DNA of 42,847 bases from a virus. Under the pieces are notes generated by a model. It saw nothing but the letters and a program-made list of their open reading frames with translations, was not told where the DNA came from and searched no databases. The stretch covers positions 1-42,847 of the IMG/VR virus record IMGVR_UViG_3300035698_004247; one strand, given 5' to 3'. A program made the position numbers and the translations under genes. Each line of letters begins with the position of its first letter. The stretch's first letter is position 1. This document shows positions 2,552-22,158 of the stretch, piece after piece.

Positions 2552-3351
2552 GTGAGGGCACCACAAACCCCCTGCTAGAATGTCCTTTTTGTGGGAGTAC
2601 CTTTCAGAGTAAAAGGGGGCTCTCGAACCATCGTCGGGTACACACAGGACAATCCAAGATAGCAGGGCGCAAGATTAGCCGTACTCGCATTGAGAAGGGG
2701 ATCGCTAAGGGCTCTCGGAACCCTAACTTTGGGGACAAGGATAGACCGTGGTTGGAGGGTGATAAGCACCCTTTCTGTAAATGGCACAAAGACAATCCTG
2801 ATTTTGGGGAAAGGCAGAAGGGGGCAGCTAATCCTGTACATAAGGTTAAACATCTTTATGCTGACCCAGAGTACGTGAAAAGGATTACTTCGGGGATACG
2901 GGCGCATGTGGACAAACGGCGTGGCTCAACCTACGAAGAGGTTTATGGACCAGAAAAGGCTGCGGAATACAGGCAAAAACTTCGGGATGCATCTCCAGTG
3001 AGATTGGCCAAATTCTACCGAAAGGAAACAGCCCCTGAGAAAGCGGTGCGAAAGATGCTGGAACAGTTGGGTGTTTCCTATGTGCAGGAAGCTCCATTAG
3101 GTTTTTACACTGTGGACTTCTTGGTGGAGGAGCCAAAAGTGGTATTTCAAGCGGACGGGGATTATTGGCACGCTAACCCCATCGCTTACCCTGACCCCAC
3201 CCCTAGGCAGAAGAATAGACGTAGAATGGATGCCTCTTGTGATTCCTTTCTTGCAAACAGGGGGTATAGCGTAGTGCGGTTCTGGGAGTCAGACCTTCGG
3301 GAAAGGCCAGAGGTCTGTCAGGCAAAGATAAAGGAGGTTTTACATGCCTAA
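2548..3351 (+). CDS. Free-standing homing endonuclease, Vsr-like (EDxHD type) with C2H2 finger
   Basis: 267 aa. Residues 12-32 form a C2H2 zinc finger (C-P-F-C at 12-15, H-R-R-V-H at 28-32). The middle (about 50-125) has Asn-Pro-Asn-Phe-Gly and Asn-Pro repeats like NUMOD3 DNA-binding segments. From about residue 162 there is a Vsr/DUF559-like nuclease core: E164 in a T-A-P-E-K helix, V-D-F at 189-191, A-D-G-D-Y-W-H at 202-208, R-x-D near 226-228, and G-Y-S-V-V-R-F-W at 239-246. This architecture matches the EDxHD homing endonucleases related to very-short-patch repair enzymes, which nick or cut intron-less alleles and spread by gene conversion. It overlaps both neighbours (4 and 8 bases), and its last codons carry the strong SD (AAGGAGG) of the next gene. 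All visible catalytic positions are intact, so it may be active. Confidence 0.8.
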   Translation: MSEGTTNPLLECPFCGSTFQSKRGLSNHRRVHTGQSKIAGRKISRTRIEKGIAKGSRNPNFGDKDRPWLEGDKHPFCKWHKDNPDFGERQKGAANPVHKVKHLYADPEYVKRITSGIRAHVDKRRGSTYEEVYGPEKAAEYRQKLRDASPVRLAKFYRKETAPEKAVRKMLEQLGVSYVQEAPLGFYTVDFLVEEPKVVFQADGDYWHANPIAYPDPTPRQKNRRRMDASCDSFLANRGYSVVRFWESDLRERPEVCQAKIKEVLHA

Positions 3352-4369
3352 TGAAAAAAGTGCATTGAAAACAATGCCTTACGGTGTGGGCTGTGATATT
3401 GGGACTATGAATTTGATCTCGGCACGTCGGGGTGACAAGGGGATTGTGACCAAGCGGATGCGTGATGTGTTCCTTGACCTCCCTGCAAACGCCAAGAAGA
3501 TGCTCAAGCTCTCCAAGACTAGCTTTGTTGAGAGAGAGGACGACGTCCTTATTCTTGGGGATGCTGCACTGGAACTTGCCAATGTCTTTGGTAAGGAGGC
3601 TCGCCGTCCCCTGTCCGCAGGCATCGTGTCAGCTACTGAGGCTGAGAGCCTGGATGTCTTGGGGCTCCTTATTAAGGAAGTCCTTGGGCCACCCATGGTC
3701 AAGGGAGAGGCATGTTACTACTCTATCCCCGCAGAACCCATAGATCAGCCTGATCAGGATATTATTTATCACCGTGAGGTGTTCCGCCAGATCGTGGCAG
3801 AGTGTGGATATACACCGTTCCCTGCCAATGAGGGCATGGGGATCATCTTTGCAGAGACCGCTAAGGAAGGTTTCTCCGGTTTGGCAATGAGCTTTGGGTC
3901 AGGTATGGTAAATGTGGCTTTGTCTATTAACACCATAGAAGCCCTTACTTTTTCTATCTCAAAAGCAGGAGATTGGATCGATCATGGGGCCGCTAAGTCT
4001 GTGGGGGCCACACAGGCTCGTGCTTGTGCAGCCAAGGAGAAGGGTATTGACCTGACGAAGCCTCAGAACCGAATGGAAGAGGCTATCGTCCACTACTACA
4101 GGGCACACATTGACTACGTCCTTGACCAGATTGCTGCCCGCTTTAAAGCCATCGAAGGCCAGTTTGACCTTCCCCGAGCGATCCCTGTGATTGTATCCGG
4201 TGGAACCAGTTTGGCTGGGGGCTTCATGGAGTTGTTCAACAAGGTGTTTTCAGAACGTCGCAAGAGGTTCCCTATCGAGGTTAGCGAGATCAGGCAAGCT
4301 TCAGAGCCCTTGAATGCTGTTGCCCATGGATTGCTCATCCAAGCTATGCAGGAACATGAGGAGGATTGA
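3344..4369 (+). CDS. Actin-like ATPase (ParM/MreB superfamily)
   Basis: 341 aa. The actin/Hsp70 ATPase motifs are in order: phosphate-1 at residues 14-28 (V-G-C-D-I-G-T), phosphate-2 at about 178-196 (G-L-A-M-S-F-G-S-G), a connecting segment G-D-W-I-D-H at 209-214 as in ParM and MreB, and the adenosine motif at 280-298 (V-I-V-S-G-G-T-S-L-A-G-G-F). Length fits a bacterial actin without a large subdomain insert. Family members polymerise with ATP and act in plasmid partition, cell shape or phage DNA positioning. Unusually, this one lies in the neck/tail operon, not beside a centromere-like repeat array or a ParR-type adaptor. It is overlapped by, and coupled (TGATG) to, the first gene of an MDP-domain series. 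The ATPase fold is confident; the role is unknown. Confidence 0.85.
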   Translation: MPNEKSALKTMPYGVGCDIGTMNLISARRGDKGIVTKRMRDVFLDLPANAKKMLKLSKTSFVEREDDVLILGDAALELANVFGKEARRPLSAGIVSATEAESLDVLGLLIKEVLGPPMVKGEACYYSIPAEPIDQPDQDIIYHREVFRQIVAECGYTPFPANEGMGIIFAETAKEGFSGLAMSFGSGMVNVALSINTIEALTFSISKAGDWIDHGAAKSVGATQARACAAKEKGIDLTKPQNRMEEAIVHYYRAHIDYVLDQIAARFKAIEGQFDLPRAIPVIVSGGTSLAGGFMELFNKVFSERRKRFPIEVSEIRQASEPLNAVAHGLLIQAMQEHEED

Positions 4370-4614
4370 TGTCAAAGTTGGTGGGTGTGACCCTGCAAAT
4401 CATGAGATCCTATGACAACCACAAAGCCGTTGTGGACACCATCAAAATACAGCCACAGGGCTTTCATTACTCAGAGAGCCGCATTGCCTTTCCCAAGGAC
4501 GGGGAACTTCTGGCAACGGAGGAGGCTTTCGTGGTCTTGCATGGTGTGACCCAGGATCTGGTAAGGGATGCACATCAGGTTTTGCTTGGGATGACAGAGC
4601 ATGAGGAGGACTGA
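4369..4614 (+). CDS. Small stand-alone MDP-domain protein (copy 1)
   Basis: 81 aa from the ATG at 4369, which overlaps the actin-like gene stop and follows GAGGA; a TTG one codon upstream is less likely. Nearly the whole protein is one copy of a domain repeated through 7092: V-G-V-T-L-Q at the start, then I-Q-P-Q-G-F (the M-D-P-x-x-F position), then V-V-L-H-G-V at the end of the core. It is closest to the gene at 6012, with matching positions over ~58 residues. I do not recognise the family. Predicted all-beta and soluble; no signal peptide or membrane segment. Coupling to the actin-like gene suggests co-expression and possibly direct partnership, which is inference. Confidence 0.65.
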   Translation: MSKLVGVTLQIMRSYDNHKAVVDTIKIQPQGFHYSESRIAFPKDGELLATEEAFVVLHGVTQDLVRDAHQVLLGMTEHEED

Positions 4615-4919
4615 TGTCCATTCGTATTTACTGTGCGGAAGATCTGTGTGAAGAAGGCATTGAGGAACTGAGGGAGCGAATTCGCATGGGGTTCGATGAC
4701 CCTAACCGCACCTTCGTGGTTAACTTCATTGTTTCGTCTGTGGACGTGCCCGATGGGGCTATTGTGATGGTGGAGGATGCGGACGACGCTCAGGCCGATT
4801 GGGCGCAGGCAGAGATAGAGAAGGCGAGAGCCGACAAGGATTATCTCGCTGTCCTCCCTTACAAAGTGCGGGTAGGACCTATTCTTCGTAGGGACACCCC
4901 CCAAGGAGGGGCATTATGA
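4614..4919 (+). CDS. Small acidic hypothetical protein
   Basis: 101 aa; ATG overlaps the previous stop (TGATG) with GAGGAGG upstream. An N-terminal helix rich in Glu (residues 9-25) is followed by a strand-rich centre (F-V-V-N-F-I-V, G-A-I-V-M-V-E-D) and a second acidic helix (A-D-W-A-Q-A-E-I-E). This could be a small alpha/beta domain. It does not carry the MDP signature of its neighbours, although it lies among them and shares their coupling. I do not recognise it. Confidence 0.6.
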   Translation: MSIRIYCAEDLCEEGIEELRERIRMGFDDPNRTFVVNFIVSSVDVPDGAIVMVEDADDAQADWAQAEIEKARADKDYLAVLPYKVRVGPILRRDTPQGGAL

Positions 4920-5113
4920 AGGATGTGAAAATTACCGTGGAGTGGGTCGATGATGAGGGGGTCCATCGTGACTGTGTGTTTGATATGGACCCACAGAAGG
5001 CTGACATTCAGCTTGGCCTCACAGATGGTGCCCCTACTTTGACTGCAAAGGGTAAGTTCTTTTCTTGGACTGCATGGCCTACAGGAGGGATTTCACCTCC
5101 TCAGGAGGACTAA
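4916..5113 (+). CDS. Small stand-alone MDP-domain protein (copy 2)
   Basis: 65 aa; coupled to both sides (ATGA at 4916, TAATG at 5113) with AAGGAGG upstream. It is a minimal copy of the shared domain: V-K-I-T-V-E at residues 4-9, F-D-M-D-P-Q at about 22-27, and a closing strand L-T-A-K-G-K. The last ~15 residues (Trp/Pro/Gly) are extra. It shows that the domain can stand alone in about 50 residues. Function unknown. Confidence 0.6.
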   Translation: MKDVKITVEWVDDEGVHRDCVFDMDPQKADIQLGLTDGAPTLTAKGKFFSWTAWPTGGISPPQED

Positions 5114-6015
5114 TGGAACAACCATTGACACGAACAGAAATCCTACAGCGTTATGAGAGGACTCCTTTCCTGGTGACCGATGATCAAGGCCAAGAGTTCA
5201 ACGGGAGATTTTTGGTGTCCTATGATCCCGTAACTGGGGAGGCTACGAAGATGGCCGCCCTTGGGGATGACCTCCCTGGTAAGAAGAGCTTCAGTGAGTG
5301 GTTGGCTTCGGAGTACCCTCCAGATCTGGATCCAGACCCCAGGAAGCCCCCTTTTGGGGGGTCATGGCTTTATGACTTTGACACATCGCCCTCAGTAGAG
5401 GCGGATAGAGCGGGAACGAACTTCATGGAGAAGTTCGATGAATGGAAGAAGTACGTTGGGCCTATCCCGGTGAGGATCACCTATGAAAGGCCCCTTCCCC
5501 GCAAGGCCCCCGCTCCCGCACCCACACATAAAAAGGTTCATGTGACCCTGACCCTAGAGCATGACACTGGGACGAGGGTTCTAGGGTTGGAGATGGACCC
5601 CATGGATTTCGAGGCCAAGTGGAAGGGGGACTCCAGGGACCCCTTTGTGACTATTTCTGGGAAGGCATTGTCGCAGTCCGTCAAGGACTCCAGTACGGAT
5701 GGCTCCTTGCAGGAAGTTATCACGACAACGGAGACAGAGTTCGCAGAGGAACTTTTGAACGCCAACCTTGCAGGGCACGACTTGGAAGCACGGGATGACC
5801 TGTCATCCTTTGTGGGGGCCTGCTATGGGTATTGGGATAAGACAGACAATAGGGTCATCCTCATTCCCATTTGGGGTTTATCCAAGGGGTTTGCTGAGAA
5901 GGGTTTGAGAGAACAACTCAAGCTTCAGGATGCCATGGGCCTGTGGACTATCCTCAGGTACTTGCCTGCAAGAGTGGCCTGGGAGAAGCGGTTCTTCGGT
6001 AAGAAGGGCGCATGA
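5113..6015 (+). CDS. MDP-domain protein (copy 3) with flanking unknown domains
   Basis: 300 aa from the ATG at 5113 (SD AGGAGGA 4 bases upstream); an upstream in-frame ATG at 5065 lies inside the previous gene and lacks an SD. Three parts: an N-terminal acidic segment rich in Asp/Pro (1-130), a basic Pro/Ala linker at about 131-140, an MDP domain at about 141-187 (V-H-V-T-L-T-L-E, L-E-M-D-P-M-D-F, V-T-I-S-G-K-A), and a C-terminal ~95-residue alpha/beta part with several Trp and Gly. The C-terminal part has no family I recognise. The domain sits in the middle here, whereas it is C-terminal in the gene at 6274 and alone in others. Confidence 0.6.
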   Translation: MEQPLTRTEILQRYERTPFLVTDDQGQEFNGRFLVSYDPVTGEATKMAALGDDLPGKKSFSEWLASEYPPDLDPDPRKPPFGGSWLYDFDTSPSVEADRAGTNFMEKFDEWKKYVGPIPVRITYERPLPRKAPAPAPTHKKVHVTLTLEHDTGTRVLGLEMDPMDFEAKWKGDSRDPFVTISGKALSQSVKDSSTDGSLQEVITTTETEFAEELLNANLAGHDLEARDDLSSFVGACYGYWDKTDNRVILIPIWGLSKGFAEKGLREQLKLQDAMGLWTILRYLPARVAWEKRFFGKKGA

Positions 6016-6287
6016 CGGCTGAGATCACAGGTGTTTCCATTCAAGTCACCACCTCTTTCAAGGGTCAGAGAGATGCTGTCCATACTGTGGAGATGGACCC
6101 CAAGGGGTTCAAGATCGATGTGGAGAGACCCATACTTTTTGGGGACCAGTTATACCCGGCTCCCTATGCCCGGATGACTATCCAGGGCACCTCTCCTCCA
6201 AGGAAGACCAGATGGTCTGAGGAGTTCAAGGCAGACTTCCAGGCATATCATGGCAAACAAGAAAGGCAACCAAATGATCAATCCTGA
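6012..6287 (+). CDS. Small stand-alone MDP-domain protein (copy 4)
   Basis: 91 aa; ATGA overlap with the previous gene. Residues 4-62 are an MDP domain: T-G-V-S-I-Q-V, then V-E-M-D-P-K-G-F, then E-R-P-I-L-F-G-D, then M-T-I-Q-G-T. The E-R-P segment is shared with copy 5, and the whole core resembles copy 1 most. The C-terminal 30 residues are basic and probably disordered. The 3' end overlaps the next gene by 14 bases (or 38 if the earlier start is used). Confidence 0.6.
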   Translation: MTAEITGVSIQVTTSFKGQRDAVHTVEMDPKGFKIDVERPILFGDQLYPAPYARMTIQGTSPPRKTRWSEEFKADFQAYHGKQERQPNDQS

Positions 6288-7092
6288 GGGTACCACGTTG
6301 GACTCCTACTCTGAGTGTGAGGGTGTCCGTTACACCGTCACAGATGACCTTTTCCGGTGGGCATGGCAGAAGAAAGAGGCTGGGGAGAGCCCCCTCTTCG
6401 TTGTTGAGGGCTGGGGTAATCTTGACAGGCGGGACAACACTTTGGTCGGGTTCTCAGCCCCAGCGAAAGACGGGGATGTCACCTTTGGGTACATCCGGTT
6501 GGGTGACCTGTTGAACCAGCCCCCTTCGGAAGAGGTTGCTGATCTTTTCGGGACCACCTCATCTGAGATCATGTTGCAACTCCACAGGGAGAACTGGCCT
6601 TGGTTGAGCACCACCCTGAGTTCTGATGGGTTCTTTGCAGGAGAGGCCGGGGATCTCCCAGAGGTTGCTGAGCTTCTGTTTGATGATGCCCCACTGGAGA
6701 AGTGGGACAACAAGGGTGACATGGGGATGCCCAAGCCCAAGAGAGATCCTGAAGCTGTGCTGAAAAGGCTTGGGCTTGACCCTGTAAACCAGCAGCGCAA
6801 GACCCGCACGCACACGTACACGCTCCCCAAGCAGGGGGCTGCGGGCGATAGCCGGTCCATTGTTTCCCAAAAGCTGACCCTGGAAACCATTTTGGATGAT
6901 GGGGAGGTTCTCTCTGGGGTCTTCCACATGGACCCACAGGATCTCCACATCGTGATGGAACGTCCCGTGAAGGTCGTCCCATCGGGAGATCCAGAGGCCC
7001 CTTGCCAAATCGTCCCACAGGACCATCTCCATACCTTGTCTATTTCTGGCAGGGTAGTGAAGGACAAGGTTCCTGAGGACAAGGACGGGTGA
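6274..7092 (+). CDS. MDP-domain protein (copy 5), C-terminal domain
   Basis: 272 aa from the ATG at 6274 (AAAGG about 7 bases upstream); an ATG at 6250 is possible but has a poorer SD. Residues 1-160 are an acidic domain with several Trp (R-W-A-W near 25, N-W-P-W near 110) that I do not recognise. Residues 165-195 form a basic linker. The MDP domain occupies about 200-265: K-L-T-L-E-T, F-H-M-D-P-Q-D-L, M-E-R-P-V-K-V, L-S-I-S-G-R-V. It closes the coupled run that begins with the actin-like gene. The next gene continues in the same frame 27 bases later. Confidence 0.6.
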   Translation: MINPEGTTLDSYSECEGVRYTVTDDLFRWAWQKKEAGESPLFVVEGWGNLDRRDNTLVGFSAPAKDGDVTFGYIRLGDLLNQPPSEEVADLFGTTSSEIMLQLHRENWPWLSTTLSSDGFFAGEAGDLPEVAELLFDDAPLEKWDNKGDMGMPKPKRDPEAVLKRLGLDPVNQQRKTRTHTYTLPKQGAAGDSRSIVSQKLTLETILDDGEVLSGVFHMDPQDLHIVMERPVKVVPSGDPEAPCQIVPQDHLHTLSISGRVVKDKVPEDKDG

Positions 7093-7119: not shown

Positions 7120-8295
7120 TTGCGACGACGGTTCATCCTTGAGCTTCGTCGCTTCTGGGCCACTCACCCCAAGTACAGGACTCTCGTGGATAACATCCAG
7201 GGGAAGTACAGCTTTAGGGAGCGCCCACAAGAAAGCATTGTTGTCAAGACATCAGGGGGCAGTCGGATCGATCTGTCTGCGGATAACTTCATTGGGATCA
7301 TCCGTTCTTATGTGTACCTCGCTAAGGTAGGGGATTCACCGGGACTCTCAATTGAGTGGGTTCGGGAAGATTCTATTGCTACGCAGAAGAATTTAGGCCA
7401 ATTCCCTTCCTTGCCTGGTGTTTACTTTATGGAGATTACGGCTGACGGTGAGTTCTATGTAGACCCCCTTTTGGATGTCTATTCTGAACCTGTGACGATG
7501 ATCGATACTCTGACAGGGCAGCTTCAAAATGCTCCTGTGTCAGGAACACTCCGCTTGTTTGAGTTGCCTGCCAATTACCAGTTGGTGGAAGGTACCAACT
7601 ATACATTGACCCTTGATCCAAGTGGGGCTCCCACAGGGGAGATTATCCTGGTTCAGTCTCTTACAGGTGGCCGCACATTGTCCGCAGACTATCGTTATGC
7701 TGGTACTTCTACGGGACCTCATGAGTATCAAGAAGGGTTTGCTAACAACAGGGCTATCCCTGGTGTGGTGTTGGCCTTTGGCCCCCGAACAGAAGTCGGG
7801 GACAAGATGGCTGTTGTGGTGCAAGACATGCGTCGTCCAGCAGCAATGGCTTACGGTGGTCAATGGGAATTGAACCTTGAGATTGAGATCACAACACGGG
7901 ATCTTTACTCACAGGAAGAGATTGCTGATCGCACTACCATTTGGATGTGGAGTGTCTTGCGTCCAGCCCTATCCTCTGAGGGGATTGAGATTACGGATGT
8001 CTCCTTAGGGGGCGAGTCCGAGGAACCCTACGATGATAATGGGGACGACTATTTCTATTCTGCTTCCCTGAGCGTTACAGCACGGACAAATTGGGAAGTT
8101 CATGTTCCTTTGAATATCTATCTTCGCAATGCTGCCTTCTTGACAGTGGGGCAGGCACGGGTTGCTGCTGGCCTTACTGATGAGGCAGTTGCTACCCTTG
8201 AGAACAATTTGAGGGTAACGGAGTCATTGGGACTCCAGTCTGTTGAGGACCCCTTCTTCAAGGATAGAACCAAGACTTACGAGGTGATTCGCTAA
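7120..8295 (+). CDS. Conserved tail/neck structural protein of large myophages
   Basis: 391 aa if begun at the TTG at 7120. That TTG has AGGGG only 2 bases upstream, and the frame is open back to the previous stop at 7092 (coding I-Y-Y-Q-L-T-G-A-L before it). From memory the family begins with a similar Y-Y-x-L-x-G-x-L-R-R-R-F stretch, so a non-standard start such as ATC at 7096 is possible. Recognisable family segments are H-P-K-Y-R-x-L-V-D-N-I-Q-G-K-Y-S-F, L-S-A-D-N-F-I-G and G-L-S-I-E-W-V-R-E-D. Residues about 110-195 carry the beta module seen in the sheath and in the first gene (E-I-I-L-V, then L-S-A-D-Y-R-Y). Position before the sheath suggests a tail-terminator or connector role; that is inferred. 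Confidence 0.7.
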   Translation: MRRRFILELRRFWATHPKYRTLVDNIQGKYSFRERPQESIVVKTSGGSRIDLSADNFIGIIRSYVYLAKVGDSPGLSIEWVREDSIATQKNLGQFPSLPGVYFMEITADGEFYVDPLLDVYSEPVTMIDTLTGQLQNAPVSGTLRLFELPANYQLVEGTNYTLTLDPSGAPTGEIILVQSLTGGRTLSADYRYAGTSTGPHEYQEGFANNRAIPGVVLAFGPRTEVGDKMAVVVQDMRRPAAMAYGGQWELNLEIEITTRDLYSQEEIADRTTIWMWSVLRPALSSEGIEITDVSLGGESEEPYDDNGDDYFYSASLSVTARTNWEVHVPLNIYLRNAAFLTVGQARVAAGLTDEAVATLENNLRVTESLGLQSVEDPFFKDRTKTYEVIR

Positions 8296-14290: not shown

Positions 14291-14602
14291 CTACCCAACG
14301 GGAGTCAGATTCTTTGTGAGGTACTCGGTTAAGTGTTCCATCGTCTGGATTGCTCCCGGCGGCACCTTCTTGAGGAACCACTTTGTTGAGGTGGCAGGCA
14401 CTTTCCCTGTCCTGAACCATTCGATGGCAATTTTGTCTACCTGTTGTGTTTCCTGCTGTGTCGTGACATGGGGCGCTTCCCGTATACACAGGACACAGCC
14501 TACAACGGACTCCCCTTGCACCACTTCGGTCACAGACATTGCCATGCCCGTGAGGTTTGAGGGAGGGTGGTTTTGTGGACTGCCTTTCTTGGTTTTTTTC
14601 AT
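14291..14602 (-). CDS. Small hypothetical protein with one C-x-x-C
   Basis: 103 aa, starting at the ATG at 14602 with GGAG about 6 bases upstream; an upstream ATG at 14656 lies in the preceding small gene's 3' end and lacks support. The N-terminus is Lys-rich. A central C-V-L-C pair and several Thr/Gln follow, then a Trp-containing helix (I-A-I-E-W-F) and a C-terminal helix. A single C-x-x-C could bind metal in a dimer. No family recognised. Last gene of the minus block, ending at the long hairpin. Confidence 0.5.
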   Translation of the reverse strand: MKKTKKGSPQNHPPSNLTGMAMSVTEVVQGESVVGCVLCIREAPHVTTQQETQQVDKIAIEWFRTGKVPATSTKWFLKKVPPGAIQTMEHLTEYLTKNLTPVG

Positions 14603-14633
14603 GGTTTCTCCATGGGCACGAGCCCCTTCAGCT

Positions 14634-14798
14634 TCAGTTACATGACAGGAACGCAATGAGTTTGATAATGATGAATACGACCCACAAGATAGCAGCCACC
14701 ATCACGAGCACAAGCCAGCGCATCCACATCCGGTTCACCCCGATCTGTGGGTCTGCCTCGTCACCAGGTTGCGCTCTGAGGGATTTCAGCCACTTCAT
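14634..14798 (-). CDS. Small single-pass membrane protein
   Basis: 54 aa, starting at 14798 behind AGGAGA at good spacing. Residues 1-27 are charged (K-S-L-R, then D-E-A-D near 13-16). Residues about 28-50 form one strongly hydrophobic segment (W-L-V-L-V-M-V-A-A-I-L-W-V-V-F-I-I-I) ended by S-C-N. The basic R-M-W-M-R just before the segment suggests the N-terminus is cytoplasmic. Phage proteins of this kind include holins, superinfection-exclusion proteins and lysis regulators, but nothing here selects one. It lies 31 bases before the C-x-x-C gene and 39 bases after a bipartite promoter-like element. Confidence 0.55.
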   Translation of the reverse strand: MKWLKSLRAQPGDEADPQIGVNRMWMRWLVLVMVAAILWVVFIIIKLIAFLSCN

Positions 14799-14836
14799 GC
14801 TTTTCTCCTAAAGGGGGAGGGGAAGTCCCTCTGCGG

Positions 14837-14867
14837 ATACAACCCGAAAGGAGGGTTGGCTAAGCCT
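14837..14867 (-). promoter_or_regulatory. Bipartite minus-strand element, copy 1
   Basis: Read on the minus strand: AGGCTTAGCC, 11 bases, CGGGTTGTAT. Exact spacing and near-identical boxes recur at 15133, 17406 and 21738, each just upstream of a minus-strand gene. The first box is itself an odd palindrome (GGCT-T-AGCC). The downstream box lies 39-48 bases before the small membrane protein start. Best read as a phage-specific promoter; a repressor or activator site is possible. Confidence 0.55.
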
Positions 14868-14874
14868 AAGGGAA

Positions 14875-15105
14875 TCAGCCTTCGGTTGTTTCCCTGGCAA
14901 GTTCGATGTATTTTTCCAGCACATCCAGGGGCACGTAGCGGGTGTTTAACCCTTCGTAGTCTGCCAGAACTTCAAAGGAGAGGGTTGTAACCCCTTCGTG
15001 GGAGCCAAAGATTCCCACCTCAATTTCGTCACCACCGCTCAGAGTCGGACTGTGGCCCTTCCTCTGCGAGATTTTCCAGCCATCTTTTTCCCAGATCACA
15101 GTCAT
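14875..15105 (-). CDS. Small acidic hypothetical protein
   Basis: 76 aa; ATG at 15105 with AGGAG upstream. The sequence alternates short strands (M-T-V-I-W; I-E-V-G-I-F; T-L-S-F-E-V-L) and ends in a helix (P-L-D-V-L-E-K-Y-I-E-L-A). It reads like a compact alpha/beta protein of the early-gene type. No family recognised. It has its own copy of the bipartite element upstream and is followed by another copy, so it may be a single-gene transcription unit. Confidence 0.55.
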   Translation of the reverse strand: MTVIWEKDGWKISQRKGHSPTLSGGDEIEVGIFGSHEGVTTLSFEVLADYEGLNTRYVPLDVLEKYIELARETTEG

Positions 15106-15132
15106 CTTGCAACTCCTGTCTTTCGTCTAATA

Positions 15133-15163
15133 GTACAACCCGATAGGAGGGCGGGCTAAGCCT
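15133..15163 (-). promoter_or_regulatory. Bipartite minus-strand element, copy 2
   Basis: AGGCTTAGCC, 11 bases, CGGGTTGTAC on the minus strand, 28 bases before the start at 15105. Upstream of it on the minus strand is an A-rich stretch (CCCAAAATAAAGG) that is also seen next to copy 3 at 17406. The rest of the 15106-15231 gap holds TTGGGTT-like repeats on the + strand and no gene. Confidence 0.55.
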
Positions 15164-15231
15164 TTATTTTGGGTTGGACTTTTGGGTTGGGTTCTGGGGT
15201 TTCTTTTTGGGGCTTCAGGAGCCCTGTCTTT

Positions 15232-15714
15232 CTATAAGTAGCGGATGCAGTAACGGCTGGAAGATCTCTTCCAGTAGTTTTTCTCTGGTTTGAGCCCTGT
15301 GGATAGAACCGAAGATACGGACCCTCTTGGCAGTTCTTCCTCGGGCTTGGCAGGGCGGTCACGCTTTCCACGATCAGCCTTTAGACAAGCTGTTCCAGCA
15401 TGGATCTCAGAGAGGGTCATGCCAGAGGCGGGACCATTGAGCAGAACCTTCCGGATCAGGGCTGCAATAGTTCCCTGAGTAGGCTCCTGCATTTTGGTAG
15501 GGGCTTTGGTGCGGCTCGCAGGGCGTAGCCGCACTTTTTCGGCACCACTGGGGTCTTCTGTGAAGTCTTTCCCTGAGGTGTCATAGGCTTCTGCAAGCTC
15601 CTGTTCCCTGATGGCCATTTCTTGCATAGCTTCTGAAACTCGCCGTTGGCAGACCCCCAGATGATTCCGTGCAGAGGCACATAAGTGCAAAGCTCTTTGA
15701 ATGGGTACACTCAT
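15232..15714 (-). CDS. Hypothetical protein, possible winged-helix C-terminal half
   Basis: 160 aa; start at 15714 overlaps the upstream gene's stop (ATGA), with GGAG upstream. Residues 1-50 are helical (R-R-V-S-E-A-M-Q-E-M), 50-80 a basic linker. Residues about 82-160 read like a winged helix: I-A-A-L-I-R-K-V-L-L then M-T-L-S-E-I-H-A, a charged loop, S-V-S-S-V-L-S-T-G-L, and aromatic residues near the end (Y-W-K-R, S-R-Y-C). That layout is common in small phage regulators, but I cannot name a family. Same operon as the two genes upstream. Confidence 0.5.
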   Translation of the reverse strand: MSVPIQRALHLCASARNHLGVCQRRVSEAMQEMAIREQELAEAYDTSGKDFTEDPSGAEKVRLRPASRTKAPTKMQEPTQGTIAALIRKVLLNGPASGMTLSEIHAGTACLKADRGKRDRPAKPEEELPRGSVSSVLSTGLKPEKNYWKRSSSRYCIRYL

Positions 15715-16277
15715 GGTTTGTTGATCTCCTCCAGAAGGTTAAGGGGTTGTCCTTTTGCGGAGGGCCCCCCTCTCTTCTTTACCTGTAGTTCCTCTAGGTA
15801 GGCCAGAATTTCATGGTGGTGGATCATATAGATGTCCCTGTTGTAAAGCTTTTTGCCATTGCTTTTCTTAGTCTGCCCCAGAAGAACAAGCCATTTCCTG
15901 TTGATGAGAGCCTTAAGGGTTGCAGGGAAACAACCCAGGTCTTCCGTGACTTGTATGCTGGAAATCGTATGGATACTTTCGGTTACAGGGATGAAGGTGT
16001 CGGATAAGACAGCCCCCTTCGTCCCTTCCAAAGGTGCTGAGGGGAGGGGCACCTCAGTCCTGGTGGGGGGCTGGCTGGCAGCCCCCTGCTCGGTTTTCCA
16101 GAAAAGATCTGCTTCTCTGATCCCCTTTTCCCACAGGGTTCCCCAGTAGTGAAGATTTTTCCCGAAGAGTGCCCCCATGGCAGAGTCATTGTGACAATTC
16201 TCTTCCCTGAAATCGGACAGCTTACGGAGAATGAAGTCTGTCAGAGTCAAGGTATTCGATGTGGTTCTGTGTGGCAT
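15711..16277 (-). CDS. Hypothetical protein, possible winged-helix region
   Basis: 188 aa; start at 16277 with a run of G (GGGGGG) as SD, 14 bases after the gene upstream. The N-terminal 60 residues are helical with two Trp; a Pro/Ser/Thr-rich linker spans about 65-90. Residues 100-165 look like a helix-turn-helix with a wing (L-K-A-L-I-N-R-K-W-L-V-L-L, then K-L-Y-N-R-D-I-Y). Like its downstream neighbour it could be a DNA-binding regulator; this is structural guesswork from pattern, not family recognition. Confidence 0.5.
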   Translation of the reverse strand: MPHRTTSNTLTLTDFILRKLSDFREENCHNDSAMGALFGKNLHYWGTLWEKGIREADLFWKTEQGAASQPPTRTEVPLPSAPLEGTKGAVLSDTFIPVTESIHTISSIQVTEDLGCFPATLKALINRKWLVLLGQTKKSNGKKLYNRDIYMIHHHEILAYLEELQVKKRGGPSAKGQPLNLLEEINKP

Positions 16278-16291
16278 GACCCCCCCAGTTT

Positions 16292-17344
16292 TTAGATGAC
16301 CTTGACGGAAGCAAGGAGGTTCTTGTAGGTTTGCAAGTTGCGTTGGTCTGTGTCGAAGCGGGGGAATGCCTTCTTGGCTGAAAGTGTCCTGACCTCTCGG
16401 CCTGGGATAGCCGCATCAAGCCCATGTAGGCAGTAGCGCATGAGATTGAGGCGATCTGTGATGGTCCGGGTCTGTCCGCTTTGACTGGTCAAAAACAGCG
16501 TGTGGAGGGCTGACCTTGGGATCAGCATGTCATTGCTGATGAGCTTGGGCCAGAATACTTCCCGAATTGCCCGGTACTCCATCTGACTGGGGGCGTAGGC
16601 ATTGAGAGCCCATATGAAGGCTGCGAGAACGGGGCCTTGTCGGAATGCCCCGTATGCCTTCCCTACTCTGATGGAGGGGAGGAGATCCATGTAGATGTCT
16701 CGGTAGATCATGGAAAGGGTGTTGAGTTCTCTACCGGTCTCAGCCCAGGGGAGGGGTTTCCCGATGACGTAGTTTCGGAGGCACTTGAGTGTCTCAAAGA
16801 AGAGGGGTGCCTTGTCAACTGCTGCCACGATAGCTAGTTGCTGTGCGGGAGTGCGTCCAGTAGCTCCGTCAACCAAGGAAACATCGATACTGCTTACAGG
16901 GCCCCTCAGCAGGAAGTCCTGTGCTTTGCCTGTTTCCTTGACGCAATGCATACGCCCATAGCCATTCACCACGACCCCGTTCTGATTGTACATGAAGGGG
17001 ATCCCTACAGATTGGTGCCACCGGTCTTCCCGCATGACATTTTTGTATGCCCTGAGAGAGGGAGAGGCTCCATCACGACGTCGGTTCTTCATGAGGAGGT
17101 GTGGGTTCCATTCTTCTTTCCCATTGGCCAGGATCTTCCGGCTGCCATCAGGAAGAGTCGTGTACTCTCCTTGGCTTTCCAAGAATCGGATAAACTCGGG
17201 GGTAATCTGGACGATGTCAAGTTGGAGGGGGTCATTGGAACCTCGTCGGACTCGCTTCCAGAACTTTAAGCGGTCTGTCACTTGGGAGAGATCCAGATCT
17301 TTGCTTTGTTGAACAGGGTCGAAATGCGGAATGATGGGGCTCAT
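16292..17344 (-). CDS. ParB/sulfiredoxin-like 'DGQHRL' family protein, degenerate motif
   Basis: 350 aa from the ATG at 17344 (AAAGGAG, 6-base spacing); an ATG at 17380 has no SD. Residues 87-140 follow the pattern of a ParB-like family widespread in phages and actinobacteria: N-R, a helix Y-K-N-V-M-x-x-D-R-W, then G-I-P-F-M-Y-N-Q-N-G, then a position usually D-G-Q-H-R-L that here reads N-G-Y-G-R-M-H. The following G-A-T-G-R-T-P-A-Q-Q-L and the helical C-terminal 200 residues also fit that family. Its function is unknown in general; related folds bind CTP or DNA. The change of the Gln-His pair suggests altered or lost chemistry. First gene of the minus operon. Confidence 0.55.
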   Translation of the reverse strand: MSPIIPHFDPVQQSKDLDLSQVTDRLKFWKRVRRGSNDPLQLDIVQITPEFIRFLESQGEYTTLPDGSRKILANGKEEWNPHLLMKNRRRDGASPSLRAYKNVMREDRWHQSVGIPFMYNQNGVVVNGYGRMHCVKETGKAQDFLLRGPVSSIDVSLVDGATGRTPAQQLAIVAAVDKAPLFFETLKCLRNYVIGKPLPWAETGRELNTLSMIYRDIYMDLLPSIRVGKAYGAFRQGPVLAAFIWALNAYAPSQMEYRAIREVFWPKLISNDMLIPRSALHTLFLTSQSGQTRTITDRLNLMRYCLHGLDAAIPGREVRTLSAKKAFPRFDTDQRNLQTYKNLLASVKVI

Positions 17345-17405
17345 GGGTGTCTCCTTTGCGATGGTTCTTCTGAACGCCATTGGTGTTCTTTACCCTAATG
17401 TGCAA

Positions 17406-17436
17406 GGTCTACCCGATAAATCTTTCCGCTAAGCCT
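17406..17436 (-). promoter_or_regulatory. Bipartite minus-strand element, copy 3
   Basis: AGGCTTAGCG, 11 bases, CGGGTAGACC on the minus strand, 62 bases before the start at 17344. This is the most divergent of the four copies but has identical spacing and an A-rich tract just upstream as in copy 2. It would drive the three-gene operon 17344 to 15232. Confidence 0.5.
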
Positions 17437-17469
17437 TTTTTATTTTTAGGGTGGGCTTTAGGGTAGACC
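17406..17469. repeat. Quasi-palindrome in divergent intergenic region
   Basis: GGTCTACCC (17406-17414) and GGGTAGACC (17461-17469) are perfect 9-base inverted copies; inside them AAGCC (17431) and GGCTT (17454) are also inverted. The gap 17381-17495 separates minus-strand and plus-strand genes, so the right half may carry the plus-strand promoter with the same CGGGTAGACC-like box. A shared operator is an alternative. Confidence 0.45.
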
Positions 17470-17495
17470 TATTAGAAACAACTAAGGAGATTCTC

Positions 17496-17927
17496 ATGCC
17501 AAGTCCCAACACGTTCGCTAGTAAGTTCGAGGGTAAGTGGTACGGACCACAGGTCACGTCCGCTATGGAGAAAGCAGACGAGACCTTGAAGGTCTTCATG
17601 GACCCTTCCGATCAGTATTGGATCGCCGCCGTTTCCCGTGAGGATGCAGACAAGCATTTGCGGGAGTACTTCGTACAGGAGGGGCGGCACGAGGATGCCA
17701 TTCAAGAGTATTTCCAGCCCTGTGAAGATGAGGAACCGTCAACTCCTGTGGACTACCGTGAGCTTGACTCCCGCCTGAAGCTGGATTGTTGGGTGTCCCC
17801 TGATTCGGAGGGCAACATGAAGCCTGATGAAGAGGGGTATGATAATGTAGAGCAGGTGACCCTGTATGCTGCTGAATGGGCTGCTGTGTTTGGGTCCAGT
17901 GTTATGTTTGGTTGTGAAGGCCGGTAG
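17496..17927 (+). CDS. Acidic hypothetical protein
   Basis: 143 aa from the ATG at 17496 (AAGGAGA at 17484). Strongly acidic, with W-Y-G-P at about 14-17, a helix with D-A-D-K-H-L-R-E-Y near 50, and an acidic linker near 75-85. The C-terminal part contains an A-A-E-W-A-A-V-F-G helix. No family recognised. First gene of a four-gene plus-strand operon. Confidence 0.55.
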   Translation: MPSPNTFASKFEGKWYGPQVTSAMEKADETLKVFMDPSDQYWIAAVSREDADKHLREYFVQEGRHEDAIQEYFQPCEDEEPSTPVDYRELDSRLKLDCWVSPDSEGNMKPDEEGYDNVEQVTLYAAEWAAVFGSSVMFGCEGR

Positions 17928-17957
17928 AGTAAGGGAAGAATCTTGCAAGGAGTTCCC

Positions 17958-18155
17958 ATGGAAAAAGTCGTGATTCGAGCTAGTTACAATGGTGATAATC
18001 CTTCAGAAGAGACCTTGGCTAAAGTCAGGGCTAAGATCATAGAGGTCGTCCAGAAGGATCTGGCGATGTCTGAAGAGGAACACAAGGAAAGCTTGAAGAA
18101 GCCTACCTTGTGGCCTTTTGACCCGATTAAGAAAGTTGGAGAGGAAAAGATATGA
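17958..18155 (+). CDS. Small charged hypothetical protein
   Basis: 65 aa from the ATG at 17958 behind AAGGAG. It starts with a strand (V-V-I-R-A-S-Y) and continues with a long helix (E-E-T-L-A-K-V-R-A-K-I-I-E-V-V-Q) and a Lys-rich tail. It overlaps the next start as ATGA. No family recognised. Confidence 0.5.
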   Translation: MEKVVIRASYNGDNPSEETLAKVRAKIIEVVQKDLAMSEEEHKESLKKPTLWPFDPIKKVGEEKI

Positions 18156-18400
18156 CAGACAAAGAAAATCCTACAGGGGCAGCACGTTATGCATCCTCTA
18201 GCCTTAAAGTTGGGGATGTTGTGGAACTTATGAGTGGTGGTCCTATGATGACCGTTACGGGTGTTGAGAGTGGGGATGTTTCATGTGACTGGTTTGCCGG
18301 TCTTGACGCGATGTCCGAGAACTTTATACTCGCCGCCCTTCAGGTTGTCCCTGCGGAGCAGGTCAAAGCCGGACTAAATTCTTTGAGGGCAAAGCTTTGA
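18152..18400 (+). CDS. YodC-like (DUF2158) small protein
   Basis: 82 aa; coupled to the gene before it. Residues 18-65 fit the YodC/DUF2158 pattern: L-K-V-G-D-V-V-E-L, S-G-G-P-M-M-T-V, then V-S-C-D-W-F and a later F-I-L-A-A-L. The family is a small SH3-like beta barrel common in proteobacteria and phages; its role is unknown. The match covers all the invariant positions I know, so the family is fairly sure. Confidence 0.7.
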   Translation: MTDKENPTGAARYASSSLKVGDVVELMSGGPMMTVTGVESGDVSCDWFAGLDAMSENFILAALQVVPAEQVKAGLNSLRAKL

Positions 18401-18615
18401 TAACTCCCCCCATCGGAGTCGGCGGTGTTGTGTCCCACATGGTGTGGTCAAGCAAGGAGCCCCGTAGCAGGATGCCCCTAGACAAGTTAGTGGAGGGCCT
18501 TCTGAGGCGCTTTGATACTAAGGAGACTGTGGTAAGGTTGGCCATTCACATAGCGAAGGTCTGCGGGACTATTACGGTTTCTGAGGGGTTTGTGAGCCTT
18601 TCTGTTGGACGTTGA
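18397..18615 (+). CDS. Small hypothetical protein, TTG start
   Basis: 72 aa from a TTG at 18397 that overlaps the previous stop (TTGA), with GAGG 8-9 bases upstream. It contains a helix with K-L-V-E-G-L-L-R-R-F and a C-terminal strand region. No better start exists before codon 15. The stop codon is part of the terminator hairpin. Function unknown. Confidence 0.45.
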   Translation: MITPPIGVGGVVSHMVWSSKEPRSRMPLDKLVEGLLRRFDTKETVVRLAIHIAKVCGTITVSEGFVSLSVGR

Positions 18616-18640
18616 TTATGCCAGGGAAAGCCCTGTCAAC
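18611..18640. terminator. Hairpin between convergent genes
   Basis: CAGGG, AAAG loop, CCCTG (18622-18635) extended by GTTGA/TCAAC (18611-18615 and 18636-18640) across a one-sided 6-base bulge. It lies exactly between the ends of the plus and minus operons and probably stops both. Confidence 0.5.
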
Positions 18641-18656
18641 ACAGTGATCAATAGCT

Positions 18657-18992
18657 CTAACGAGTTCCACATTGAGGGGGGGTGTGATTGACTTCCCTTT
18701 TCAGGTGTGCATGGATCTTTGCTAGGAACTTCTCTGCTTCTTGCCATTCCTTGATGGTAATGGTCCCGTCCGGTATCATGGGATGCATTGCAGAAAAGAT
18801 TACCTGGCCATCTGTGCATAGGGCGTGTACTCCAGTGCAGGGGTTGAAGCGTAAACCGGTGGCACATAATTCCCCAGATACAATTTGCGTGTCCCTTACC
18901 GTTGAGACCACGGGCTTTTCTTGTCCACCACAGCCGCTTAGAGAAACAGCACCCCAAAAGATGCCCACTAATACTGGCAATAGACGTTTCAT
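18657..18992 (-). CDS. Lipoprotein with type II signal peptide
   Basis: 111 aa; ATGA overlap with the NUDIX gene and AAGGAG upstream. Residues 1-20 form a signal peptide: M-K-R-L-L, a hydrophobic core, and a lipobox L-S-G-C with Cys20 as the lipidated residue, followed by G-G-Q. The mature part (~90 residues) has three further Cys (two near C-A-T-G and N-P-C-T-G, one near the end) that could form disulfides in the periplasm. Phage lipoproteins include Rz1-type spanins and superinfection-exclusion proteins. Spanins are usually shorter and Pro-rich, and no partner i-spanin is adjacent, so exclusion is the better guess, but it stays a guess. Confidence 0.65.
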   Translation of the reverse strand: MKRLLPVLVGIFWGAVSLSGCGGQEKPVVSTVRDTQIVSGELCATGLRFNPCTGVHALCTDGQVIFSAMHPMIPDGTITIKEWQEAEKFLAKIHAHLKREVNHTPPQCGTR

Positions 18993-19375
18993 GTTGCATA
19001 CTCCTTAATGAGCTTCTTTGAAATGGGGCCTGTGTTTTCAGGCATATCCTGTGCATTGAACCACCCGTAGGCATCATGTTCCCATGACACGACTACTTGT
19101 CCAGTGGCTACGACCTTGAGCTTGAAGACATCTATGAGAGTACCCGACTCTTTTTGCTGAAGGATGTGTTCATAGGAAAAAGCTCCTAGACCTGATTCCT
19201 CTTTCAGTTCCCTCCTAGCAGCATCCTTTGGGGCTTCATCCTCATCAACCATACCACCTGGTATGGCCCAGATGCCTGCTTCAGTAGGGGCAGTGGGACC
19301 TCTGCGAAGCAGCAGGACTTTACCTTCTTCATTGAGCACAAGGGCAAGGGCCGCTCGCTTCTGTGTGTCTTTCAT
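18989..19375 (-). CDS. NUDIX hydrolase
   Basis: 128 aa from the ATG at 19375 (AAGGAC upstream), one base after the RNA ligase stop; the frame continues upstream but inside the ligase gene. The NUDIX box G-x5-E-x7-R-E-L-x-E-E-S-G-L is complete at about residues 37-60 (G-G-M-V-D-E-D-E then R-R-E-L-K-E-E-S-G). The core strands on either side (A-L-A-L-V-L-N-E-E-G-K-V-L-L-L-R-R-G and W-A-I-P-G-G) are intact, so it should be active on a nucleoside diphosphate linked to X. The substrate cannot be read; MutT-like dNTP, NAD or capped RNA ends are the usual options. Coupling to an RNA ligase makes an RNA-related substrate attractive. Confidence 0.85.
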   Translation of the reverse strand: MKDTQKRAALALVLNEEGKVLLLRRGPTAPTEAGIWAIPGGMVDEDEAPKDAARRELKEESGLGAFSYEHILQQKESGTLIDVFKLKVVATGQVVVSWEHDAYGWFNAQDMPENTGPISKKLIKEYAT

Positions 19376-19376
19376 G

Positions 19377-20432
19377 TTAGTCCTTTTCTTTGGAGAGGTA
19401 TTCAGGGCTCCGTTGCTTAAGGAACATTCGGTGAAGGCCCCCATCAAAGGACCCCATCAGTTCTTCCATGGTCTTCACCACGATACCCTCACGGCGAGTT
19501 TCAGGGCGCAGCACACTATGACCATTGCTAGCTTCTTGGAGGGTCCTTCCATTTAACCACTCTCGTAAAGTAATGCCAGAGGCCAACACGGGAACTCGAA
19601 GGCATTCTGGTAGATACCCTACAAATTGCTCAGGGGGGAGGTAATCCCGACCCACCTGAAGATCAAAGAACCTGAACTCAGTGTGGATACGCCTGTAAAG
19701 GTTCTTGCGGATACCCGGCCCAATAAGCTCCCCTCGCAGCACTAGCTGTTCGTCGGGGAAGGCTTGAGCCAGGTCCTTTAGGATGTCAGGAACACCCATG
19801 CTGCGGGCGGTGTCACAGTAAACATTTGCCTTACCAGGGATTTCCTCAATCCGGTTCTGATGCTGGCAGAAGTATATCTCACCATCTACTGTGCGGACAG
19901 CAGCAAAGTTGGAGCCCTCAAGCTTCTCTGTCACATGGACGGTAATGTCCATCATTTGTTGTGCAATGTCAGGGAAGCGGTCGGCTCCTTCAATGTTATA
20001 GACACCCACGCTGTCTGGCAGGGCATATAGGATACAGTGTCCTGTGTCGTTTGGGGCAGGTTCATACTTTTCTACACCCAAGTGTTCAGTCAAAGCATCA
20101 GCAGAGAGGTCCAGCCCTTCCCAATGTTCCCCCAGAACAGTCTCAGGGCGACAAACGAGCCCTTGGCTCACCTGTCCACGCAGCTTGACCGTTTTGATCC
20201 GGTTGCAGTCCTTGCCTGAAAGTCTGCCTACGAGCCCTAGCTTTTCGATCACAGGCACAGGTAGCAAGCTGTCTACGGGGAAGTAGAGAACTTGTTCACC
20301 GGCTTGGTGGGTGTCTTTGAGGACAACAAACTGAAAGTTCATCCCCTTTACCTTGGCAAGGTCCAACCTGTCTGCATTGGGATGTGCCCAGACTTTTTCT
20401 AGCTCTTCTAGTGTTACGCCGAAGAATGCCAT
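19377..20432 (-). CDS. RNA ligase, DraRnl (Rnl5) type
   Basis: 351 aa. Residues 1-120 form the N-terminal OB-like domain typical of Deinococcus RNA ligase: H-P-N-A-D-R-L near 17-23, F-P-V-D-S-L-L-P near 51-58, and R-I-K-T-V-K-L-R-G-Q-V-S-Q-G near 78-91. The nucleotidyltransferase core follows, with motif I E-K-L-E-G-S-N (Lys170 is the adenylated residue), R-G-E-L-I-G, F-F-D-L-Q, motif IV E-G-I-V-V-K-T and motif V L-K-Q-R-S-P-E-Y. DraRnl enzymes seal 3'-OH/5'-phosphate nicks in RNA with ATP, and phage versions may repair RNA cut by host defence. All motifs are intact. It heads a three-gene operon with NUDIX and lipoprotein. Confidence 0.88.
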   Translation of the reverse strand: MAFFGVTLEELEKVWAHPNADRLDLAKVKGMNFQFVVLKDTHQAGEQVLYFPVDSLLPVPVIEKLGLVGRLSGKDCNRIKTVKLRGQVSQGLVCRPETVLGEHWEGLDLSADALTEHLGVEKYEPAPNDTGHCILYALPDSVGVYNIEGADRFPDIAQQMMDITVHVTEKLEGSNFAAVRTVDGEIYFCQHQNRIEEIPGKANVYCDTARSMGVPDILKDLAQAFPDEQLVLRGELIGPGIRKNLYRRIHTEFRFFDLQVGRDYLPPEQFVGYLPECLRVPVLASGITLREWLNGRTLQEASNGHSVLRPETRREGIVVKTMEELMGSFDGGLHRMFLKQRSPEYLSKEKD

Positions 20433-20466
20433 ATCATATCCTCATTCTAAAAGTTATATGGGGGAG

Positions 20467-21276
20467 TTAGTTTCCCATCACCCAGCCAAGAGTTCTCTCC
20501 CCAACAGGGATAACCATCTCTAAGCCGTTTTGGTAAGCATCCCTGATGCCCACCGTTAATAGATTGGGATCCTCTTCCATCCAACCTTTCTTGGCCGCCA
20601 CCCAAACCATAAGGGCGGCCCTGGCGGCCCTGGTGTCCCCGGCGTCCCAGGCGGCACAGGTGTTCTTGGCGGCCCAGGTGTTCTTGGTGGTCCTGGCGTT
20701 CCAGGCGGTCCTGGCGTTCATGGCGGCCCTGGCTTTCCATGTGTCCCTGGCGGTCCAGACACCTAGAAGATTATTTACAGAATCGAACTCCTTGAGTTCC
20801 CAATCATGGAGACCTCTGGCATCCAGAGCCTGTCGGAGCCCTTGCTGGACTTTTTCAGGGTCCTGCACAGGCCGGGACAATGCTTCACGCCACAATAGAA
20901 CCTCTTTGGTTAACTCCTTTTTGAGAAGATTCCCGAAAGGTTTATGCATTTTGAGCAGGAACGGTTCAATGTCTAGGATCTCTTCTGTGATAGTCCAAGA
21001 AGAGGATCGGATCTTATTTTCCCGTTTAAAGACTTCTTCGTTGGTCTCGACTCTAAAGAGTCTTGACGGACGCCCACTAGGCCACAGCCCTGCGATGCTC
21101 AGTGCTACGTGTGCCTTAAGGCAAGCGTTCCACCCTGCACCGCACTCCTCATCAGAAGGATCTACTTCCACGGTAGGGAGCGTGTAAGGGAGCGTACCGT
21201 CCCATACAGGCTCACCACCTCGGATGGGAGACCTAAGATCGTGAGTGAAGACTTTGTAAGCTTTAGTAATGAACAT
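20467..21276 (-). CDS. DUF7666-like protein with Ala-rich three-residue repeats
   Basis: 269 aa; AAAGGAA upstream of the ATG at 21276. The first ~100 residues match a phage family that I recall as DUF7666: [34 protein letters not shown], and a K-I-R-S-S segment. Residues about 170-220 are a run of triplets of form x-(A/T)-(R/W/K), encoded by an imperfect 9-base repeat, and should form a long helix. A C-terminal G-L-E-M-V-I-P-V-G closes the protein. Function unknown. The C-terminal domain after the repeat is only ~45 residues. Confidence 0.55.
20614..20757 (-). repeat. Imperfect 9-base repeat tract inside the DUF7666-like gene
   Basis: About 16 consecutive 9-base units of form GGCGGCCCT / GGTGTTCCT (plus-strand view). 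In the minus coding frame they give Ala/Arg/Trp/Lys triplets; on the plus strand the same bases would read as Gly-X-Y. The composition is much richer in G+C than the flanking sequence. Confidence 0.75.
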
Positions 21277-21294
21277 GCCAAATTCCTTTGTTTG

Positions 21295-21717
21295 TCAGCC
21301 TGGATCTGCGAGGCCCATGATACAGTTGCCCCCACTTCCGCCTGCCATGGGGTTTCCTGCGTACCTAGTGTAAGGGGAGTGTCCTGCTCCTCTAAATGGC
21401 CTAGGCTTTTCCCGACGTTGTAGATGAAGACCATAGTCTTTCAAGGCACCCACGATTTCTCGATGTGAGAGTTTCAGCCTGCGGTTCAAGCAGTTTAGTT
21501 CCTGATAGGTGTAGGAATCTCTCTCATCTTCCATTAGGGATTCAATGAATGTTTCTAGAGACTCGAACTCAGGAAACTCTGGCTTGAGATCCCCAAATCT
21601 CCAGTCTGGGGTCTCGTAATCGATTTCCTCATCCCTAGCCTTACGACGTGCGGCACGCTCTTCTATCTTTTGTGTCTCTCTGTCCTCGTTATATGGGACA
21701 TACTTGAAGCGAGCCAT
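21295..21717 (-). CDS. Hypothetical phage protein with Gly-rich C-terminal tail
   Basis: 140 aa; start at 21717 with AGGAGGTG directly upstream. The N-terminus is highly charged (E-E-R-A-A-R-R-K). Residues about 60-100 resemble a helix-turn-helix (Y-Q-E-L-N-C-L-N-R-R-L then S-H-R-E-I-V-G-A-L). The last 35 residues, with R-G-A-G-H-S-P-Y-T-R-Y-A-G-N-P and a G-G-S-G-G-N near the end, match a short motif that I recall at the end of uncharacterised proteins in many tailed phages. Its SD lies in a 10-bp hairpin with the upstream promoter-like element. Function unknown. Confidence 0.6.
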   Translation of the reverse strand: MARFKYVPYNEDRETQKIEERAARRKARDEEIDYETPDWRFGDLKPEFPEFESLETFIESLMEDERDSYTYQELNCLNRRLKLSHREIVGALKDYGLHLQRREKPRPFRGAGHSPYTRYAGNPMAGGSGGNCIMGLADPG

Positions 21718-22129: not shown

Positions 22130-22158
22130 TTGACAGAACGTGACAGTTCTAGTATCGT
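22130..22158 (+). promoter_or_regulatory. Sigma70-like promoter with MerR-type internal dyad
   Basis: TTGACA (22130-22135) is a perfect -35; 17 bases on is TATCGT as a -10. Between them AGAAC (22135-22139) and GTTCT (22146-22150) form an inverted repeat with 6-base spacing, which is where MerR-family regulators bind. The gene it serves is itself a MerR family member starting at 22188, so autoregulation is likely. The -10 matches only 4 of 6 positions, and classic MerR promoters have 19-20 base spacing, so details are uncertain. Confidence 0.55.

Follow-up and report, generated by a model that had tools for sequence, protein, structure and literature searches.

Filaments encoded by phages can move capsids or assist DNA replication, with the tubulin PhuZ (PMC7950403) and the actin AlpC of prophage CGP3 (PMC4446434) as described examples, and a further relevant filament protein is Volactin of Haloferax volcanii (PMC10869688). 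The locus described here resembles these systems in that it includes a Volactin-family actin gene; it differs from them in that our finding concerns small proteins encoded beside that gene rather than the putative filament protein itself. To our knowledge, no binding protein has been described for this phage actin.

Hypervariable accessory slots of the "moron" type occur in phage structural operons, and the genes studied here are likewise short, optional, variable between phages and flanked by conserved structural genes, with unrelated genes sharing the same place. They depart from that pattern in that one family occupies the slot across a branch of huge phages, with between one and five copies per slot, and is accompanied by a second, shuffled module.

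The window and its block of overlapping genes

The window, meaning the whole stretch of DNA that was analysed, is a 42.8-kb linear virus record (42,847 nt, IMGVR_UViG_3300035698_004247). Relatives of its actin come from IMG/VR records of up to 402 kb and from uncultured huge-phage records of 485 and 595 kb, and the window is therefore most likely a piece of a huge-phage genome. Neck-type and baseplate-like genes are present, as are the actin-like gene, the five-copy block and genes for a putative tail terminator (7120), a zinc-ribbon protein, a sheath-like protein (8912) and a tape-measure-like protein (28724); the neck, sheath, tape measure and baseplate labels are ones we assume from the order of the genes and from what is generally known of phages. 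A block on the opposite strand (14291-21717) separates the sheath-like gene from the later tail genes, and Nudix-like and RNA-ligase-like proteins were noted in it by eye. A protein of 807 aa that combines VIT and von Willebrand A domains is also encoded in the structural region (22640-25063), just preceded at 22140 by a gene that looks, by eye, like a MerR-type regulator.

The actin-like protein scored 237.5 bits against the Volactin family model (cut-off 35), and its nearest solved structure was MamK (E 6e-5). In all nine phage actins aligned, the Asp of the MamK phosphate-2 motif (VDIGAGTT) is replaced by Ser (SFGSGMTN-type), and because of this replacement hydrolysis may be altered. One 297-kb record (G042, the record of L154) has two Volactin-family genes, at 131852-132814 and 293993-294952. 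The terminator assignment draws on 155 confirmed relatives in viral contigs and on a distant match (E 4e-4) to a gene of phage Tunturi_5 annotated as tail terminator; in a genome collection search the gene was present in a single contig only.

A preliminary description of this DNA had proposed a family of five paralogous units in genes starting at 4369, 4916, 5113, 6012 and 6274. All five genes are present on one strand with overlapping stop and start codons (Table 1) and, as had been reported, the block lies next to the actin gene, which it overlaps. Strong, AGGAGG-type ribosome sites precede 4369, 4614, 4916 and 5113, and the stop-to-start overlaps of the genes at 4369, 4614, 4916, 5113, 6012 and 6274 suggest translational coupling across this run.

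Table 1. Features between the actin-like gene and the putative terminator; leave-one-out and other-phage-only E values refer to 12,979 unique ORFs.
Feature	Position	Strand	Basis
Volactin-type actin-like gene, immediately 5' of block	3344..4369	+	Pfam PF25216 Volactin, E 3e-70
Copy 1, whole protein, 81 aa, IKIQPQGF; start overlaps actin stop	4369..4614	+	Leave-one-out E 0.074; other-phage-only profile E 9.5e-6
Interposed 101-aa gene, non-member	4614..4919	+	No domain match
Copy 2, whole protein, 65 aa	4916..5113	+	Leave-one-out E 1.6; other-phage-only profile E 0.016; pair with copy 5 Z 5.5
Copy 3, probable; domain about 5533-5670 of 300-aa protein	5113..6015	+	LEMDPMDFEAK...FVTISGKA; leave-one-out E 55; other-phage-only profile E 160
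Probable GHD, first half, C-terminal to domain in 5113 protein	5737..5883	+	E 0.0005 among six block proteins
Copy 4, whole protein, 91 aa	6012..6287	+	Leave-one-out E 0.012; other-phage-only profile E 0.002
Copy 5; domain about 6859-7059 of 272-aa protein (alternative start 6250)	6274..7092	+	Leave-one-out E 0.10; other-phage-only profile E 5e-7
Possible GHD, middle part, N-terminal to domain in 6274 protein	6487..6585	+	E 0.004-0.03 among six block proteins
Putative tail terminator, conserved 3' border of slot	7120..8295	+	Relatives and distant annotated match

The domain makes up the whole protein in three copies and is fused to other sequence in two, in agreement with the preliminary description. 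It spans about 55 residues and probably consists of beta strands throughout, the first followed by one that bears a Met/Leu-Asp/Asn-Pro turn and then by a closing one with Gly at its end. The M-D-P unit ascribed to all five copies does not hold for the copy at 4369, which has I-Q-P in its place, and the E-R-P said to occur often is confined to the 6012 and 6274 copies and absent from the other three. The interposed gene at 4614-4919 matched a third small slot family (xxGDxVxVxx...) weakly, at E 0.023 among six proteins; members of that family lie at L055:186-410, L079:8301-8582 and L029:8691-8975 and in L062.

Recovery of the family by profile searches

Smith-Waterman comparison of the copies against shuffled sequences gave strong scores for two pairs (4369-6012, Z 8.6; 4916-6274, Z 5.5) and a weak one for a third (6012-6274, Z 2.2), and no other pair was significant relative to the shuffles. 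Single-protein searches of viral contigs found no relatives for the 5113, 6012 and 6274 copies, and those of phage records found nothing meaningful for 5113 and 6274.

Profile searches covered 12,979 unique ORFs from 170 loci (10,737 ORFs in an earlier round). Two kinds of exclusion test were made, one leaving out each copy in turn and one using a profile built on eight other-phage proteins with no window copy included (Table 1). The preliminary description had proposed that copy profiles scoring no better than random would speak against the family; when this comparison was run, the copies at 4369, 4916, 6012 and 6274 scored better than random, and the copy at 5113 failed both exclusion tests. 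Beyond the window, every match of the five-copy profile at E<0.02 was to a protein encoded in the corresponding slot of a related phage (E from 5e-7 to 0.015 among the 12,979 ORFs), the best reversed decoy having an E of 5.3. In the earlier round its top non-window matches were three tandem proteins of L027 (E 5e-7 to 2e-6), followed by proteins of L055, L023/L026 and L030; each of these matches is encoded in the slot, just 5' of the terminator gene. The iterated profile gave 16 matches among the 12,979 ORFs, the five seeds included, all 16 in the slot, and reversed decoys never fell below E 1.1.

Could the five copies be alike by chance, or through short convergent motifs? Most single pairs are non-significant and the 5113 copy was not recovered by either exclusion profile, as such a reading would have it. 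It is contradicted already for the four copies recovered by profiles that excluded them, decoys do not score, and the matches in other phages all fall in one slot; we give it almost no weight. On these profile scores, the copies at 4369, 4916, 6012 and 6274 firmly constitute one family. The 5113 copy, with a fitting motif and position and a weak score, is retained as a probable member. The proposed five-copy family thus holds for four copies and probably for the fifth.

The best matches of the domain were 0.047 in Pfam, 0.063 in PHROGs and 1.5 in the PDB, each from a single member or fragment. By these comparisons the family is undescribed, in line with the earlier statement that no name for it was known. 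One candidate relative was the tail-tube initiator (PF23980), which has in common with the domain a short hydrophobic-N/D-P-hydrophobic strand-turn-strand pattern; the domain is much shorter and has no convincing profile score. The same N/D-P pattern is present in the window gene at 32105 (weak Pfam Phage_tail_tube_init match, E 0.054), and profile comparison aligned the domain exactly at that pattern, better than three controls. These observations would fit a virion part, that is, a reduced relative of the tail-tube initiator fold that decorates the tail or neck. However, the alignment covered 21 columns only, with a probability of 1.6%, a D/N-P turn may arise repeatedly and the PDB gave no match. 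Homology to the initiator, a matter of motif only, was rejected, and we regard a role as such a virion part as very unlikely.

The slot in related huge phages

Of 77 distinct huge-phage loci with the putative terminator, 67 have a Volactin-family actin gene immediately 5' of it, and the other 10 have no actin. Scored with an extended profile at E<=1e-3, the domain was present in 15 of the 67 actin-bearing loci and in none of the 10 actin-less ones (Fisher p 0.19). All 21 domains found with this profile were inside the actin-terminator slot; its alignment includes some members chosen from the slot by eye, and the five-copy profile is the unbiased measure. In 45 records searched whole, the slot was the one place with a well-scoring domain; two stray matches elsewhere (E 0.012 and 0.03) are excluded from the counts. 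A 436-kb phage has three domain copies. A search limited to slot ORFs gave a weak, probable copy in L039, whose 169-kb record is without a Volactin match and may be a fragment. IMG/VR records are often fragments, and little weight can therefore be put on a gene's absence from one of them.

Unrelated genes are found in the slot as well, encoding a TnsA-like endonuclease, GroES (Cpn10), PAPS-reductase, SocA/Panacea and DUF7768 proteins (L002, L008, L058, L068, L078 and L038). Another small multi-copy slot family has the pattern VVMTPxFW...GYVWGxKIWLS (L007:11493-13028, L032:1-780, L045:7892-8933, L048:8547-8918), with no Pfam match in the three proteins tested.

On a tree of the terminator, the domain is confined to a 40-row part, with eight changes, at least four of which well-supported branches make unavoidable. 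L002, the closest relative of the window and its sister on this tree, has an actin 85% identical to that of the window and no domain copy. Since close relatives lack copies, the family is not a core part of the actin system or of the tail. Between L027 and L028, identity was 93% for the actin, 86% for the terminator, 78% for the GHD module (see below) and 37% for the domain, in a pair that may compare paralogues; in the group of L007, L048, L045 and L037, flanking genes were 79-84% identical and the domain 55-70%. Judged by such identities, the neighbouring genes change far more slowly than the domain does. A recent tandem expansion of the five window copies was not favoured, their identities being 21-35% and a low-support tree mixing them with copies of other phages.

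The preliminary description had read the copies as adaptors or subunits of one complex with the actin. If they link the volactin-type filament to capsids, tails or membrane, it would be consistent that the first copy begins within the actin's stop codon, that the actin lies 5' in each of the 15 loci scoring above threshold, and that a phage cytoskeleton moving capsids has a precedent in PhuZ (PMC7950403). However, the domain is missing above threshold from 52 of the 67 actin-bearing loci, the association with actin is not significant and actin is common anyway, L002 retains actin with no copies, and the actin-less, possibly fragmentary L039 record holds a probable weak copy. The domain accordingly failed as an obligate actin partner, and the adaptor claim found no support; we consider an adaptor role, which would have to be an optional one, unlikely. 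By analogy with jumbo-phage tubulin, the domain might form a modular, quickly diversifying toolkit of filament-binding or virion-trafficking adaptors, of a new kind, that attach capsids or tails to the phages' own volactin-type cytoskeleton, a proposal less likely still.

Several slots contain a second undescribed module, GHD, defined by WL...GHDL...DDPxxRxxGF and a C-terminal LLxTxxGR. It follows the domain in L017, L023 and L024, precedes it in L041 and is encoded by a separate adjoining gene in L027 and L028; the two co-occur (Fisher p 0.0007, with loci counted without kinship correction). Searches of Pfam, PHROGs and the PDB with GHD gave nothing beyond single weak matches, and a match to PDB 8vd6 "CAP REPEAT" (E 0.003 over 39 columns) was judged to be due to chance. 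The two long window proteins had been described as fusions to different large domains. Both are fusions, and that the fused parts differ is doubtful: partial, weak and complementary matches (E 0.0005-0.03 among six proteins) suggest that both may carry GHD, the match in the 5113 protein having an E of 0.4-2.4 in the full ORF set. The module order of the 6274 protein is that of L041. GHD proteins are also found far from tail genes in some huge-phage records (L202, L203, L204, L205 and L206), that of L204 having 385 aa.

Candidate roles of the slot proteins

Based on the copies being missing from close relatives, shuffled, small and co-operonic, we tentatively favour, at somewhat less than even confidence, their being optional, late-made binder modules that act in or on virion assembly from an accessory slot. 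The slot is an optional, fast-changing stretch of the structural operon in one huge-phage branch, between the actin and putative terminator genes. Operon position and gene overlap suggest production together with the actin and tail proteins, presumably late in infection, and the size, speed of change, copy number and shuffling of the proteins fit binding modules rather than enzymes. We speculate that the modules attach to some product of the operon or to assembling virions, that this attachment tunes assembly, trafficking or particle contents, and that fusion to GHD would supply a second partner. Against this reading, confinement to the slot could be plain inheritance in place, patchiness and fast change equally fit host-directed cargo, and GHD is also found away from tail genes.

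Host-directed cargo ranks close behind, as a possible if rather unlikely explanation. The slot would then be a landing place, and the family would consist of small inhibitors of host defences or functions, diversified by an arms race and lying in a structural operon by chance. The unrelated genes that share the slot, from the TnsA-like endonuclease to DUF7768, are what a landing place would be expected to hold, and the copies are small, mostly acidic, fast-diverging and dispensable. Cargo gene families usually change genomic location, however, whereas well-scoring copies were found nowhere else in the 45 records, and searches of Pfam and PHROGs revealed no known inhibitor that the domain resembles.

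Seeded from one genome and recovered elsewhere by profile, this so far nameless domain family has a well-defined position in huge-phage genomes, a spot where these phages keep swapping small proteins beside tail genes and a conserved phage actin. Binding to the actin or the virion would make the proteins a lead to partners of a phage volactin, whereas binding to host proteins would make the slot a place to seek new counter-defence genes.
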